Positions 2,386 through 20,698 of a stretch of DNA of 20,698 bases are shown piece by piece. The notes below the pieces were generated by a model. That model was not told the origin of the DNA and made no database searches. It saw nothing but the letters and a program-made list of their open reading frames with translations. Each line of letters begins with the position of its first letter. Position 1 is the stretch's first letter. Source of the DNA: a virus; IMG/VR virus record IMGVR_UViG_3300033149_004623, positions 1 to 20,698 of that record, one strand, 5' to 3'. The position numbers and the translations under genes are program-made.

Positions 2386-4757
2386 GTTATTATTTCTTTT
2401 TTAGTAATATCAATTTCAAATAGGTTTCCCCATGATTTTCCCATTTTTATTTCTACTGGAAATGGAACTTCTGCTTGGATAGTTTCACGAGGAACATTTT
2501 CCATTGTATTTTTTATAATATCAATTATTTGCCAAAAAGTATCTTTATCGTTTGGTGCTTCAATAATAATAGAATCATGAACTAAATTTACAATAGAGCA
2601 GTCAAGGTTTTTTAAGCGTTTTTCAAGTAGCATAGCTGAAACAAAAGTCAAATCACTTGCAACACTTTGTATTTCAAAATTTCTTGATTCATTGAGTAAA
2701 TGTTTATCATTTATTTTTATCCCCCATCTTCTTTTTCTGCCAAAAGGTGTTGTAAATACTTCACCATTTAGAAAACGCTTTTCACAATTATCCAACCATT
2801 GTTTAGCTTGAGGCATAGTTGCAAACCATTCTCGTAATAATATTCTAGCTTCTCTTATAGACATATTAAATTCTTCAGCAATAGAAGTTTCTCCTCTTCC
2901 ATAAGTTGCACCAAAGTTTAATCCTTTAACTTTTACTCTTTGTTCTTTTGTAAAATTATCTCCAAAAATCTTACGTGACATTTCATCATGAGGGTCTCTT
3001 CCTTCTTTAAAGAGTTTTATTAAGAATTCATCTTTACTGACATGAGCTAAAACTCTTAATTCTGCTCCTTTATAATCAGCTTCTATAAGTATTTTTCCTG
3101 GAGGAGCACTAAATATGTTTTTAACACCACTATCACGTTTAATATTTTGCAGGTTTGGTTTTTTAGAAGATAACCTACCTGTAACAGCAGTTTGTAAAGA
3201 AAAATCACTTCTTAATCTATTATCTGGTCCTAATCTTTTTAAAACTCCATTTACATATGTAGATAATATTTTCTGCTTTTTCTTTAATTTTATATATGTA
3301 GGAATAAATGGATGTGCATAATCTACATTTTTTAAAACATTTTCATCAATACACTTCTTTGTTTTTGTTTTTACTGTTGGTCTAATACCAATTACATCAT
3401 ACAAAATCCATCTCATTTGATATGTGCTTTGAAGATTAAGCTCTTCTGAAGCAGATTTAGCTCCTGTTTGTTTAATATAAAGGTCTTTGTTCCAAAAATG
3501 TCCTATTTGCTTTAATATTTCTTGTTTTAGAGCCTTTATTTCTTTTTCCAATTTCTTTTTATACTTCATAACATAAGGAACATCAACAAAAAATCCATTT
3601 TGAGTAACTCTCCGTAAAAAATTAATACCAGTAATAAGTATATGATGATATAACCAATCTAAATCAGGGTCGGCTTTTACTTTAGGTAAAAATATATTGT
3701 AAAGTTGTCTTGTATAGTCACAATCAAATGCTAAATATCTATACAATTTATCTCTAGGGCAATTCTGATAACCTTTATCCTGTTTTTTATATTTTTTAAC
3801 TTCTTTTTCATAATCTTCTGCACCTAAATAACGTATTGCTAAAGCTTTTAAATCATGTCCTCCTTCACTTTCATCTAAACAATAGTGAAGAAGCATTGTA
3901 TCATGGTCAATGTTAGCATTGCCTAATTCTTTTATTCTTAAAAATAATGTATCGAATTGCCCTCGCTGCCAAGTGAATTTTAAATGACTATCAAATAATG
4001 GTTTTATGTATTTTAGGTATTTATCTGGAAATATAATTACTTTACTCTTGTCATAAGCAAAACCAATACAAAGTATTGGACTTTTAAAAGGGTCTAGCCC
4101 TCCAGTTTCTATATCTGAAGCTATAATACCTTGTCTAGTTAAGAGAAATTTAACTGCTTTTTTAGCCATTTCTTCTGAATCTACTACTAAATAATTAGTT
4201 GGTTCAGGTTTCTTTATAGTATTATTATTAAAGATTTCATTAGCATATTCAAAACCATCTTTAAATGCTCTAATGTTTTTCATATTACGAAGTATTGCAG
4301 CAGGATGAAAAATTGGAATTAACCAAATACCATCTTTGAATTTTAAAGCTTTACTATGCATTGTTGATATTTTTAATGAAAAATCATCAGTTAGTGCATG
4401 GAGGGCTACATTACCTAAAGCTATAATCATTTTAGGTTTAACTTGCTCTATTTCATAGAATAACCTATCTCTACAATTTATTATTGCTTCTTTACTAATT
4501 ACATTTGATTTGCTTTTATTAGGCATACATAAAAGAGCATTAGTAATAAAAGGATTAGATGGTAATCCTGCTTGTACTAATGCTTGTTTTAAAAGTTGTC
4601 CACTTTTACCTACAAATGGTACTTTTTTTATTAATTCAGTTTTACCAGGACCTTCCCCTACTATCATTAAATTATTTTTCTCTATTGGTGTAGGAGGTAT
4701 TTGTGGACAGTTTTTATATATGCAATTATCACATTTAAGATAATTCAACTGGTTCAT
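2373..4757 (-). CDS. Uracil-DNA glycosylase fused to family A DNA polymerase
   Basis: This is the replicative-type polymerase of the phage with an added uracil-recognition module. Numbering below is from the upstream TTG at 4766 (797 residues). Residues about 8-180 resemble a family 4/5 uracil-DNA glycosylase: GEGPGKTE and PFVGKSGQLL, HPAAILR, and four cysteines placed as Fe-S ligands (C12, C15, C80, C98). Residues about 193-365 are a DnaQ-like 3'-5' exonuclease (D218 and E220 in SDIETGG, D272 in QFD, Y344 and D348 in YLAFD). Residues about 380-785 are Pol A: motif A DYKGAELRVLAH (D564), motif B with R610, K614, F618 and Y622, and motif C VHDS (D731). Motif C has Ser where bacterial Pol I has Glu. 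The ATG at 4757 sits directly behind GAAGAAG and is preferred to the TTG at 4766, which lacks a Shine-Dalgarno. The gene overlaps the HTH gene upstream. It is the last gene of the minus-strand array. Confidence 0.93.
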   Translation of the reverse strand: MNQLNYLKCDNCIYKNCPQIPPTPIEKNNLMIVGEGPGKTELIKKVPFVGKSGQLLKQALVQAGLPSNPFITNALLCMPNKSKSNVISKEAIINCRDRLFYEIEQVKPKMIIALGNVALHALTDDFSLKISTMHSKALKFKDGIWLIPIFHPAAILRNMKNIRAFKDGFEYANEIFNNNTIKKPEPTNYLVVDSEEMAKKAVKFLLTRQGIIASDIETGGLDPFKSPILCIGFAYDKSKVIIFPDKYLKYIKPLFDSHLKFTWQRGQFDTLFLRIKELGNANIDHDTMLLHYCLDESEGGHDLKALAIRYLGAEDYEKEVKKYKKQDKGYQNCPRDKLYRYLAFDCDYTRQLYNIFLPKVKADPDLDWLYHHILITGINFLRRVTQNGFFVDVPYVMKYKKKLEKEIKALKQEILKQIGHFWNKDLYIKQTGAKSASEELNLQSTYQMRWILYDVIGIRPTVKTKTKKCIDENVLKNVDYAHPFIPTYIKLKKKQKILSTYVNGVLKRLGPDNRLRSDFSLQTAVTGRLSSKKPNLQNIKRDSGVKNIFSAPPGKILIEADYKGAELRVLAHVSKDEFLIKLFKEGRDPHDEMSRKIFGDNFTKEQRVKVKGLNFGATYGRGETSIAEEFNMSIREARILLREWFATMPQAKQWLDNCEKRFLNGEVFTTPFGRKRRWGIKINDKHLLNESRNFEIQSVASDLTFVSAMLLEKRLKNLDCSIVNLVHDSIIIEAPNDKDTFWQIIDIIKNTMENVPRETIQAEVPFPVEIKMGKSWGNLFEIDITKKEIITKAP

Positions 4758-17444: not shown

Positions 17445-18794
17445 TTACAAAAAGAACTTTTTTAGATGATTTGTAATTAAATTAGTAGCCTTCTTTTTAG
17501 AATTTAATCTATTAATCATATCCTCTTCAGGCGTACCTTTATGTAATAAGTATAAACAACGAACATTATCATGTTGCCCTATTCTATGTAATCTATCTTC
17601 TGCTTGCTCATTATCATGTGGACCCCATTCATAACCCAAAAATATAGCAGTTTTAGCATCAGTTATTGTTTGAGAAATACCGCTTTTTATTGTAGCAATA
17701 ACTGCTTTTTTATTACTTTCATTTTCCTGAAAAGCACGTACTGTATCTTCTATTTTTTGAGCAGGCATTCCGCCTTGTATAATATAGATATTATTTTTAT
17801 ATAAACCTATTAATATTTCTTTAATATATTTAATTGCTTTAGCAAATGGAGTAAATACTGCAATTGGTCTACCTAAAGAAATTTCTTCTTGTGCAATTTC
17901 ATGAAGCATTTTTAAGCCACCACCAATTATAGGTAAACCAAGTATTTGAGGTGTTATAAGTAACTGTCTTATTCTGGTTCTAAGAGATAATGCATTAGGA
18001 GTTGCTAAAAATTTATTTCCATAATCAAAATACATATCTTCAACTAACTGGTTATAAACCTTTTCTTGTTCAGGTTCCATTTCTACAGTTATAGCCTGTC
18101 TAGTTTTTTCTGGAAGTTCTTTTAAAACTTGGTCTTTTAATCTTCGTATTAAATATTTACTATGAAGCATTTCCCTAAAAGCTTTTATATCTTTTGGAAA
18201 TGGCTCTATTGTATATCCATATTCAGTTTTAATAGTTATGCAGTATTGGCGAACGAAGCTCCAATAACTTGTAAACATTTTAGGGTCAATAAGAGATAAA
18301 GGTGCATACAAGTCAGCAGGAGTAGACCTCATTGGAGTTCCTGTAGGCATAATTAAATTAGAAGTCCAATGAGTTAAAAGTTTAAAATCTCTATAAATAT
18401 TTGTTTTATGGTTTAAAATTCCAGGTAAATGGAATTCATCAGGTATAACAACTTTAAAATATGTATTACCTATTAATTTATATAACTCTTTTACAAAAGC
18501 ATAATTTGTTATAAGAAATTTTGGATTAGATAAAAATTGAGTAAAAGCTTTTTTTCTTTTATTCAATGGTCCAGAATAAACATAACTTTCTTCGTTCAGC
18601 CATTTTTTAATTTCATTTTTCCAAACATATAATCCAGGCTTGGTTGATATACATAAAACTGGATATTCTTTTAATTCTTTTACTACTAAGAGAGCAGTAA
18701 GAGTTTTACCTAAGCCTGCTTCATCACCTAAAATACAGCGTGAATAATTATTTAGTATAAAATCTCTACCTTTAATTTGATAATCTCTAATCAT
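17445..18794 (-). CDS. SNF2-family DNA helicase/translocase
   Basis: The 449-residue protein has all major SF2/SNF2 motifs: Walker A GDEAGLGKT (23-31), Ia near CISTKPGLYVWKNE, II PDEFH (DEFH at 119-122, a variant of DEAH), III MPTGTPMR (149-156), the C-terminal RecA domain with VFTPF (about 313-317), SGISQTIT (motif V region), and VI QAEDRLHRIGQ (397-407). It is a compact phage version without accessory domains. These proteins translocate on duplex DNA and are common in Gram-positive phage replication modules. The start is an ATGA overlap with the upstream gene and probably relies on coupling, as no strong ribosome-binding site is visible. Its last codons contain a slippery heptamer leading into the glycosyltransferase frame. 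Confidence 0.92.
   Translation of the reverse strand: MIRDYQIKGRDFILNNYSRCILGDEAGLGKTLTALLVVKELKEYPVLCISTKPGLYVWKNEIKKWLNEESYVYSGPLNKRKKAFTQFLSNPKFLITNYAFVKELYKLIGNTYFKVVIPDEFHLPGILNHKTNIYRDFKLLTHWTSNLIMPTGTPMRSTPADLYAPLSLIDPKMFTSYWSFVRQYCITIKTEYGYTIEPFPKDIKAFREMLHSKYLIRRLKDQVLKELPEKTRQAITVEMEPEQEKVYNQLVEDMYFDYGNKFLATPNALSLRTRIRQLLITPQILGLPIIGGGLKMLHEIAQEEISLGRPIAVFTPFAKAIKYIKEILIGLYKNNIYIIQGGMPAQKIEDTVRAFQENESNKKAVIATIKSGISQTITDAKTAIFLGYEWGPHDNEQAEDRLHRIGQHDNVRCLYLLHKGTPEEDMINRLNSKKKATNLITNHLKKFFL
17457..17463 (-). other. A AAA AAG slippery heptamer at the end of the helicase gene
   Basis: In the helicase frame the codons are CTA AAA AAG TTC TTT TTG TAA. This places the classic dnaX-type -1 frameshift heptamer (17463-17457) three codons before the stop. 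The -1 frame is exactly the open frame of the downstream glycosyltransferase. No strong stimulatory hairpin or nearby upstream Shine-Dalgarno was found by eye. Confidence 0.5.
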
Positions 18795-19132
18795 GCTTGT
18801 ATACTTTTTTGTATAGTAATAGGTTTATTTTCTTTTTTAGAATAAAATACATGCATTATATAATTTTTATCTTCCTTTTCAACAACTACTGACCCTATAT
18901 AGGTAGAACGTGGTAAATAAGTAGTTCTATCTCCACTGGTATTTATATCTATTCTAAATTCTTCTTTCCTAGTCTCATTTATTGTTTCTAAAACATTAAG
19001 TACTAAATTACCTTTAAGATAAGAAACTGATATAGGCAAAGTTCCTAAAGGTAATAATAATTTCTGTTTAACTTCAAATCTTAATGAATACGACATTACT
19101 CTAGTTGTGTTATGTTCTTTTTCTTCATTCAT
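18791..19132 (-). CDS. Unknown 113-residue protein upstream of the SNF2 helicase
   Basis: I do not recognise this protein. It looks mostly beta-stranded: alternating hydrophobic and polar residues (YSLRFEVKQKLLLPLG, LVLNVLETI, EFRIDINTS, YIGSVVVEKED, YIMHVFYSKK), with a charged N-terminus and no membrane span or cysteines. A TAGGAGG site lies about 5 nt before the ATG, inside the 31-residue ORF, with which it shares an ATGA overlap. It in turn overlaps the helicase start by ATGA. The tight coupling suggests a helicase partner or another replication accessory, which is inference. Confidence 0.68.
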   Translation of the reverse strand: MNEEKEHNTTRVMSYSLRFEVKQKLLLPLGTLPISVSYLKGNLVLNVLETINETRKEEFRIDINTSGDRTTYLPRSTYIGSVVVEKEDKNYIMHVFYSKKENKPITIQKSIQA

Positions 19133-19224
19133 TTTAACCTCCTATAAAAAATATGACATATTCCTATAACAATTATTAATCCAAATAAATAACATATAAT
19201 ATTTTCAAGAGATAATATATTCAT
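19129..19224 (-). CDS. 31-residue single-span membrane peptide
   Basis: This small ORF fills the 94-nt gap between the RuvC-like gene and the 113-residue gene. It begins at an ATG 3 nt after the resolvase stop and ends in an ATGA overlap with the next gene. The peptide has one hydrophobic segment (NIICYLFGLIIVIGICHIF, residues about 8-26) followed by a basic end (YRRLK), giving a plausible N-out/C-in single span. No strong ribosome-binding site precedes it, so it is probably read by coupling. Its function is unknown. A chance ORF is possible, but the exact gap fit and coupled ends argue for a gene. Confidence 0.55.
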   Translation of the reverse strand: MNILSLENIICYLFGLIIVIGICHIFYRRLK

Positions 19225-19226
19225 CT

Positions 19227-19706
19227 CTATTCTTTGCCAAATAATAAATAATAACAACCATGCCTTATGGCATCTCTGGCATGTTTATTTTTTATGTAGT
19301 ATCCCCACTCCTTTAACTTTTCATTGGTGACAAACCCTTTTACTCCTGAAGCCATTTGTTTTATTAATTTTATTTTATACTTTCTACAGACAAATTCTAT
19401 TGCTCCAATAATTCTTACTGTTTCTACAGATGAATATGCTTGAACTAATCTTTTCCCTGAATAAATTCTATATTCTTCACAGACTACAACATTGGGATTA
19501 AATTCTCCTATTTTATCTACGATAGGGTCCCAACCATGTTTAGAAGTCCATTCTATTATTCCTGAAGTACCTAATTTCCCAGCATTAAATAACGCCCATC
19601 CAGATGTTTCTCCAGGGTCAATAGCTAACATTAAATCTGGAATTTCTCTAGAATCATCTCTACTTTTTTTAACTTTAGTAAGAAATTCTAGAAACTTGTT
19701 CTCCAT
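19227..19706 (-). CDS. RuvC-like Holliday junction resolvase / RNase H-fold nuclease
   Basis: The 159-residue protein has a RuvC/RNase H-fold pattern: first strand LAIDPGETSGWALF with D30, a second acidic site VVVCEEYR (E77), and a C-terminal KHARDAIRHG motif with H142 and D145. This is the arrangement of phage RuvC-like resolvases that cut branched DNA during replication and packaging. The first 22 residues are a charged extension before the core. GAAGGAAG precedes the ATG. It overlaps the 70-residue gene by 32 nt. Exact junction specificity cannot be read from the sequence. Confidence 0.85.
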   Translation of the reverse strand: MENKFLEFLTKVKKSRDDSREIPDLMLAIDPGETSGWALFNAGKLGTSGIIEWTSKHGWDPIVDKIGEFNPNVVVCEEYRIYSGKRLVQAYSSVETVRIIGAIEFVCRKYKIKLIKQMASGVKGFVTNEKLKEWGYYIKNKHARDAIRHGCYYLLFGKE

Positions 19707-19887
19707 TTTTTCTTCCTTCTTCTAAAACATAAATATCAAGAAGATTTAAAAGGTCAGAATAAGATAAACCTGTTTGTATCAAAATTTTTTTATCTAATTT
19801 TTTAAGTACCTCAGGTTTATTTAATATTTCTTTTAAACCCTCAATAACAAGTTTTTTATCTTCATCTTTTGTCATTAGAATTATCAT
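19675..19887 (-). CDS. Unknown 70-residue mainly helical protein
   Basis: I do not recognise this protein. It is highly charged and predicted helical, with KDEDKKLVIEGLKEIL, PEVLKKLDKKIL and SYSDLLNLLDIYVLEEG forming amphipathic helices. There is no cysteine or membrane span. An AAGG lies about 9 nt before the ATG at 19887; another in-frame ATG is at 19875. It overlaps the upstream repeat protein by 26 nt and the resolvase by 32 nt in different frames, so all three are probably translated from one message. An early phage accessory protein is the best inference. Confidence 0.62.
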   Translation of the reverse strand: MIILMTKDEDKKLVIEGLKEILNKPEVLKKLDKKILIQTGLSYSDLLNLLDIYVLEEGRKNGEQVSRISY

Positions 19888-20146
19888 TTTTTGTAACCTT
19901 ATAACCTTTATTCTCTAGTATATTAATTAATTCATCTATATCATTAGGTAGTACTGCATAGCCTCTAGCTTCTAAAATTGTTTTAAATTCTTTATCCCTT
20001 TGGTCTAAGTCCATATCTACAGGTTTTATCCTAACCATATATCCTCTAGCTTCAAGACGTACTATCATATCTCTATCTATTTTTCTATTATGGTCTTTGA
20101 GCATAGCTTGTTGTTCTTCTTTTGAAAAATTTATTTCCTGTTGCAT
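19862..20146 (-). CDS. Unknown 94-residue protein with three LEARGY-type repeats
   Basis: The sequence contains three copies of a helix-turn-strand unit: LEARGYMV at 31, LEARGYAV at 58 and LENKGYKV at 77, each preceded by a short acidic/polar helix. The spacing is 27 and 19 residues. Charged residues dominate and there is no membrane span. The unit recalls small alpha/beta repeats but I cannot name a family. The start at 20146 has GGAG 7-8 nt upstream (AAAGGAGATATTTAA), and this whole start region is tandemly duplicated. It overlaps the 70-residue gene by 26 nt. Function is unknown. Confidence 0.68.
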   Translation of the reverse strand: MQQEINFSKEEQQAMLKDHNRKIDRDMIVRLEARGYMVRIKPVDMDLDQRDKEFKTILEARGYAVLPNDIDELINILENKGYKVTKNDNSNDKR

Positions 20147-20206
20147 TTAAATATCTCCTTTATTCCTTTATTTCCTGTTGCATTTAAATATCTCCTTTAT
20201 TCCTTT
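20130..20206. repeat. 37-bp tandem duplication covering a ribosome-binding site and start codon
   Basis: Bases 20130-20169 match 20167-20206 exactly at a period of 37. Each copy carries, on the minus strand, AAAGGAGATATTTAA, an ATG and the codons for MQQEI. The copy nearest the gene body supplies the real start at 20146; the other lies upstream. Because 37 is not a multiple of three, the upper copy opens a separate short frame. Confidence 0.95.
20160..20183 (-). other. Seven-codon upstream ORF created by the duplication
   Basis: From the upper ATG (20183) the frame reads MQQEIKE and stops at TAA (20162-20160), 4 nt before the GGAG of the genuine start. It has its own equally good ribosome-binding site. 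It could act as a decoy or a coupling leader. It may also be a neutral by-product of a recent duplication. Confidence 0.45.
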
Positions 20207-20255
20207 TAATAGATTTAACAACTAAATGATTTATAAGTTCCTGTAGTAAACTCAA
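20184..20255 (-). CDS. Possible 23-residue leader peptide with TTG start
   Basis: A TTG at 20255 overlaps the stop of the upstream gene (TTGA) and lies 7 nt behind a strong AAGGAGG site that is itself inside that gene's last codons. The frame reads 23 residues (beginning MSLLQELINHLVVKSIKR) and ends at TAA (20186-20184), directly abutting the next ATG. It fills the gap between two genes exactly. The peptide is amphipathic and basic near the end. Function unknown; the strong site is otherwise unexplained, which supports translation. Confidence 0.5.
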   Translation of the reverse strand: MSLLQELINHLVVKSIKRNKGDI

Positions 20256-20533
20256 CTTTGCCCCTCCTTATGTCTATATCCAAAACCAAAATCATATCCT
20301 GCCCATAATAAAAATCTTTGCCATCTACTTAATTCTTCTAAAGGTACAGGTAATACCTCAATTATTTTATCTTTCTCAACTAATTTTTCTAATCTACAAA
20401 ACAAATTTTCTATTAATTCTTGATTGCTTTTAAAAACTCCTATACCATCTTCAATACTTAAAAAATCTATAACTACCTCATATGCTTTATTTTTAATACA
20501 TATTATATCTCCTTTACATAAATTTTGTCTCAT
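20252..20533 (-). CDS. Unknown 93-residue protein, possible small beta-barrel
   Basis: I do not recognise this protein. The first part (CKGDIICIKNKAYEVV) looks like the start of an SH3-like or KOW-like beta-barrel, and the last third has an aromatic patch (SRWQRFLLWAGYDFGFGYR). No membrane span is certain, although FLLWAGYDFGF is hydrophobic. A GAAAGGAG site lies about 10 nt before the ATG. Its final codons carry the Shine-Dalgarno for the following small ORF. It is the first complete gene in the window's minus-strand array. Confidence 0.66.
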   Translation of the reverse strand: MRQNLCKGDIICIKNKAYEVVIDFLSIEDGIGVFKSNQELIENLFCRLEKLVEKDKIIEVLPVPLEELSRWQRFLLWAGYDFGFGYRHKEGQS

Positions 20534-20566
20534 TTTTCAAATTCTCCTTTCTGTTCCTTTAATGTT

Positions 20567-20698
20567 TTATACTCCTGAGGCAACCCTTATTAAATAAGCT
20601 GAACCACCAATACCAATAAAACTAATAACAATACTACTAAACAAACAAAATTCAAACCAAAAATTATAATGGGATTCACAATAATACCATTTGTTCCA
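20567..20698 (-). CDS. 3' part of a small membrane protein (5' end outside the window)
   Basis: The minus-strand frame is open from the right edge of the window to a TAA at 20569-20567, giving 43 codons. The segment FCLFSSIVISFIGIGGSAYL is a clear membrane span, preceded by an aromatic-rich stretch (WNKWYYCESHYNFW) that looks like an interfacial region. The start lies outside, so total length is unknown. It precedes the 93-residue gene by 33 nt and is probably in the same transcript. No family is recognised; a chance frame is possible because the stretch is short. Confidence 0.5.
   Translation of the reverse strand, partial: WNKWYYCESHYNFWFEFCLFSSIVISFIGIGGSAYLIRVASGV

Follow-up and report, generated by a model that had tools for sequence, protein, structure and literature searches.

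An exact 37-bp tandem duplication of a translation start signal in a tailed-phage contig, probably a recent product of slippage

Leader frames that end shortly before a gene occur in many bacterial groups, with favoured stop-to-start distances of 10-13, and of 15-16 in Firmicutes, according to PMC4833913, whose authors (Korolev et al. 2016) proposed reinitiation as the explanation for these distances. In E. coli, a Shine-Dalgarno (SD) sequence before the second start raises reinitiation and a greater distance lowers it, as described in PMC2268962. A review (PMC12548453) describes how short frames can deliver ribosomes to a gene, a role that mobile MIRU repeats also play at start codons. Among the papers listed in a literature search there is no phage case of a duplicated initiation region, nor any mention of duplicated or tandem ribosome-binding sites as a phrase, which is not proof of absence.

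The locus described here lies in a virus record of 20,698 bases, analysed over its whole length (the window), with a G+C content of about 24-32% per kilobase. Positions 20130-20206 consist of two identical 37-bp units arranged head to tail plus 3 bp (about 2.1 copies, 100% identity), confirming the exact tandem duplication reported in an earlier, sequence-only reading of this DNA. When the window is matched against itself, the exact run at distance 37 is 40 nt long, and the runner-up at any distance of 4-199 is 15 nt; in 15 second-order Markov simulations the longest self-match per simulated window was 11 to 15 nt. The tandem repeat is real in the sequence and far beyond chance, with the adjacent, near-identical copies above chance level that characterize a tandem duplication. 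Short homology at the unit edges amounts to 3 nt (AAA on the coding strand) and is otherwise absent there; in DNA this rich in AT, three matching A/T bases are weak evidence. Further copies of the unit elsewhere in the window were considered and dropped, as a search with its 24-nt core at up to 3 mismatches found no extra copy within the window. A 12-nt match, ATATCTCCTTTA, at 20505-20516 falls inside the upstream ORF and is presumed to be a chance match.

Table 1. Features at and around the tandem repeat (window coordinates).
Feature	Position	Strand	Basis
Lower unit copy (downstream on the mRNA), 37 bp	20130..20166	-	self-match
Upper unit copy (upstream on the mRNA), 37 bp, identical	20167..20203	-	self-match
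Three extra matching bases (AAA, coding strand), the edge microhomology	20204..20206	-	40-nt run at distance 37
Upper Shine-Dalgarno AAAGGAG	20192..20198	-	sequence
Lower Shine-Dalgarno AAAGGAG, 8 nt before the lower ATG (20146)	20155..20161	-	sequence
Seven-codon frame ATG...TAA, MQQEIKE then stop; putative translation	20160..20183	-	sequence
94-aa ORF whose start signal is duplicated	19862..20146	-	ORF list
93-aa ORF upstream, same direction	20252..20533	-	ORF list

All functional features of the repeat are on the minus strand (Table 1), a point that the earlier reading left unmentioned. Each unit contains AAAGGAG, a 7-nt match to the SD consensus, followed by an 8-nt spacer and then by ATG CAA CAG GAA ATA and 2 nt. 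The earlier reading was correct that an SD and an ATG had been copied, as well as that the two start signals are 37 nt apart (ATGs at 20183 and 20146); its "five codons" beyond the ATG are, however, four, or five if the ATG is counted, plus 2 nt. The seven-codon upper frame that it described is also present, but the stop of this frame runs into the lower SD: the TAA (20162-20160) shares its last two bases with the AAAGGAG there, as the first two A's of that motif. The distance from this TAA to the lower ATG is 13 nt. The upper ATG does not share a reading frame with the 94-aa ORF, which cannot extend upward because an in-frame TAA immediately precedes its own ATG; an extension through the upper ATG was dropped on both counts. 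The 93-aa ORF stops 68 nt upstream of the upper ATG. A similar SD is found at most other genes of the window, so that the lower site is a normal start by the standards of this phage. The idea of a promoter or terminator here was likewise dropped, as the scan lists neither within 20130-20206; promoter-like sites number 16 across 18700-20698, against 12.1 expected.

The contig comes from a tailed bacterial virus to which nothing in the collections searched is closely related. Family matches reveal a cell-wall hydrolase with peptidoglycan-binding, glucosaminidase and amidase domains, and the contig also encodes an AAA protein, a PD-(D/E)XK nuclease, a SNF2-type helicase, glycosyltransferases, a radical SAM protein and sugar-nucleotide enzymes. 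A 159-aa protein has matches to Holliday junction resolvase-type families in PHROG, and a family-A polymerase is nearest to those of Bacillus and Weizmannia phages at about 32% identity. Genes for a glycosyltransferase, a radical SAM protein, an epimerase, an RmlD-like protein and a dTDP-4-dehydrorhamnose 3,5-epimerase form a block in this phage contig (8130-17412, minus strand), which suggests that the phage may make or alter a surface or virion sugar. The resolvase-like protein lies near the helicase (17445-19706, minus strand), and the two also lie close to each other in phage loci L009, L011, L054, L007, L008 and L016, among the best 80 of 481 helicase relatives. A 113-aa protein (18791-19132, minus strand) matches DUF7352 with an E value of 7e-6, 0.4 bits under the curated cut-off.

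Relatives of the repeat and of the proteins around it are scarce. The 94-aa protein has no usable relative in the viral_contigs or genome_contigs collections, and its matches in four phage records (E 0.2-0.8, at most 80% covered) are not significant. A 25-nt stretch of the initiation region has 0 matches in viral_contigs, and the DNA of 18700-20698 has none in the phage records. Searched as single sequences against viral_contigs, the 93-aa and 159-aa neighbours gave no relatives, nor did the polymerase (query taken from 4718 down, its start being uncertain); the helicase gave five distant loci. An alignment of five helicases was used to collect 481 relatives, the best 80 of which correspond to 80 loci. 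Within these best 80 of 481, relatives of the 159-aa protein occur in 8 loci (E 1e-28 to 1e-8), and the 94-aa protein has no relative at E 0.5 or better. The best Pfam match of the 94-aa protein (E 0.0042) is below its cut-off, and its best PHROG match (E 0.0005 over 20 residues) is sub-threshold. This protein contains the motif L-E-x-x-G-Y-x-V three times, at residues 31-38, 58-65 and 77-84, with the first two motifs 27 residues apart and an 11-nt exact DNA match at distance 81; an internal duplication may have enlarged it. The repeats were not returned by a BLASTP self-comparison of the protein.

The position of the duplication is best judged against the positions that were open to it. A 37-bp duplication inside a gene shifts the reading frame. 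Every possible 37-bp duplication in the window was enumerated (20,662) and was scored as tolerated if the duplicated segment was non-coding or contained the start or stop of each gene touched, using a purpose-made list of 27 ORFs, one of them partial. In 1,485 placements no gene is broken; a start codon is included in 758 of them (51%), the commonest class, and a full SD and start in 397 (27%). Like duplications at the 26 leaders of the window would in 13 cases produce an upper frame that stops before the second start. By this control, both the place of the duplication and its mini-frame are as expected from random slippage minus the events that break genes, and the early stop of the upper frame, being what half of the window's leaders would give, lends no support to the selected translation switch that the earlier reading had offered as an alternative to slippage.

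A survey of 88 records (87 loci, some of them redundant, plus the window; 1.33 Mb) identified nine exact tandem arrays with a period of 20-200, the window's included, with arrays built from at most two letters excluded and overlapping periods merged. The other eight have periods of 21, 22, 24, 24, 24, 27, 27 and 42, all but one (22) being multiples of three, and the window array is one of only two of the nine that would break the frame inside a gene. This pattern is as expected if frame-breaking repeats persist only outside coding DNA. Counting against slippage and neutrality, none of the other eight arrays spans a predicted SD start, and the window array is the only one of the nine at a start. 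On a separate point, L036, a viral contig, has two exact arrays of one 27-bp unit about 90 bp apart (2776-3039), probably a coding repeat. In the same 88 records, SD-led mini-frames of 3-20 codons ending no more than 28 nt from a start precede 15 of 1,459 predicted starts, the window's included, a count that was made with mechanical ORFs and a simple SD rule, keeps mini-frames lying inside an upstream gene and includes redundant loci (L008 and L016, for example, are the same match). A mini-frame before a start is thus not unheard of.

The explanation that best fits these results, and which is considered likely, is a recent and probably neutral tandem duplication by slippage in an AT-rich tailed-phage contig, with the output of the 94-aa gene little changed. 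Recent slippage had been one of the two origins suggested by the sequence-only reading, and it agrees with the complete identity of the copies, with the AAA microhomology and with the prevalence of start-spanning placements among those tolerated; the verdict on origin rests on exactness, microhomology and the placement control. Replication is proposed to have slipped between two AAA triplets 37 nt apart on the coding strand, so that the 94-aa gene had its translation initiation region and opening codons copied. The lower copy would have left the gene intact, and the upper copy would have turned into a seven-codon mini-cistron that ends in the lower SD. The duplication was most likely tolerated because the gene kept an undamaged start signal of its own. 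As no single-copy relative was found, we infer the direction and the age of the event.

If the region is transcribed, 30S subunits could bind either SD and ribosomes could start at both ATGs. A ribosome from the upper ATG would make seven residues and halt on the lower SD, 13 nt before the real ATG; terminated ribosomes could then restart at the lower ATG, and independent initiation at the intact lower site would also be possible. The change in output of the 94-aa gene would probably be modest or small, rather than the result of strong competition, because of the published stop-to-start distances, the raising of reinitiation by an SD and the delivery of ribosomes by short frames. The two starts had been called competing, which is only one possible relation between them; under the rules published for short stop-to-start distances (PMC4833913, PMC2268962), a supply of ribosomes from the upper cistron to the lower start is no less likely than competition.

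The same geometry may also be read as a selected bicistronic leader, in which the mini-cistron recruits ribosomes and passes them to the 94-aa gene, after the manner of reinitiation-dependent leader peptides and of engineered bicistronic designs. A short SD-led frame does end shortly before the gene, and the overlap of its stop with the lower SD, together with a stop-to-start distance that the PMC4833913 convention puts at 14, fits a functional leader cistron and counts against slippage and neutrality. The strong AAAGGAG at both sites is in keeping with such a leader, as are the 13 nt between stop and start, near the preferred distances in PMC4833913, the stimulation of reinitiation by an SD ahead of the second start (PMC2268962) and the ribosome-delivering short uORFs discussed in review PMC12548453. 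The lower site, however, needs no helper, because it already carries an equally strong SD; half of such duplications would produce this geometry by chance; and coupling without an SD faded fast with distance in PMC2268962. A selected leader is therefore regarded as unlikely. An assembly or library artefact, with only one copy in the phage itself, is quite unlikely. The source is a metagenomic virus record in which about 500 bp separate the repeat from the contig end, but the repeat (40-nt exact overlap, 77 nt in total) does not reach the length of an ordinary short read, and the contig runs 492 nt past it with an intact ORF. Faced with a 40-nt repeat that it cannot resolve, an assembler is more apt to merge the copies or end the contig than to insert an extra one.

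Other readings give the repeat a regulatory role. The sequence ATTTAAAT around each ATG is self-complementary, and for this reason the two copies can pair. In a switch of this kind, copy number or an RNA hairpin between the copies would set translation; in the hairpin form, the palindrome AUUUAAAU around each AUG would pair with its twin and hide both AUGs, until a ribosome on the mini-cistron opened the stem. Folding predictions are partly favourable, with the two AUGs having unpaired probabilities of 0.14 and 0.17 in a two-copy RNA of 201 nt versus 0.74 in a one-copy control of 164 nt, and with the inter-palindrome stem as the predicted minimum-energy fold in all three unmodified stretches that hold both palindromes. 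Yet the stem consists entirely of A-U and G-U pairs, both SDs remain mostly open (0.70 and 0.81), and any duplicated palindrome would pair likewise. Moreover, the fold is not significantly more stable than composition predicts, whether over 77 nt (-3 kcal/mol, z -1.53, with 15 of 200 shuffles as stable) or over 121 nt (z -0.17, 84 of 200). With no relative to show conservation, no significant RNA fold and no Rfam family (0 matches at the gathering score over the window), the selected switch of the earlier reading finds no support, and setting of translation by copy number or hairpin is extremely unlikely. Very unlikely, too, is a one-step translational rheostat, in which duplication of a palindrome-bearing initiation region would yield both a mini-cistron and an AUG-hiding hairpin, so that translation of the 94-aa gene would depend on mini-cistron ribosomes and be reset by gain or loss of a unit. 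Least probable of all is that the two copies serve as sites for a regulator, in DNA or RNA, their overlap with the start signal being secondary. Each unit does hold the small palindrome, but the core recurs nowhere else in the window at up to 3 mismatches, no Rfam family matches, and the unit boundaries match no gene-independent motif.

A recent slippage duplication would make this locus a clean, small example of how a random event can create a gene-coupled upstream frame in one step, and the placement control indicates that such cases are to be expected in gene-dense phage genomes without selection. As it stands, the locus has little significance; for it to gain any, copy number would have to vary within the population and affect expression.

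Comparison with described systems places the locus as follows. Engineered bicistronic designs (PMC5995908) share the short first cistron and the second SD before the gene, but their tight stop-start coupling is a matter of choice, whereas here the initiation regions are copies of each other and the stop lies upstream. The intergenic repeats before start codons in marine Beggiatoaceae (PMC4679880) are similarly direct repeats in an initiation region; these are heptamers at many genes, mostly without an SD, in contrast to the single 37-bp unit holding an SD and an ATG. Mycobacterial MIRUs (PMC12548453) resemble the locus in that repeated DNA at a start codon supplies a small upstream frame, but they are mobile and multi-copy with a -4 nt overlap, and the 37-bp unit is present only in tandem at one place. 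The termination-reinitiation leader cistrons (PMC4833913, PMC12548453) share with the locus a very short frame that has its own SD and a stop shortly before the gene (13 nt here); these were inferred from an excess of distances over many genomes, whereas the present locus is one case for which no relative was found and in which the gene's own SD is intact. From short slippage duplications between microhomologies the locus shows no marked difference: it has the two identical adjacent copies and the few matching bases at the edges, and in this instance the start signal happens to be covered and the period of 37 is not a multiple of three.
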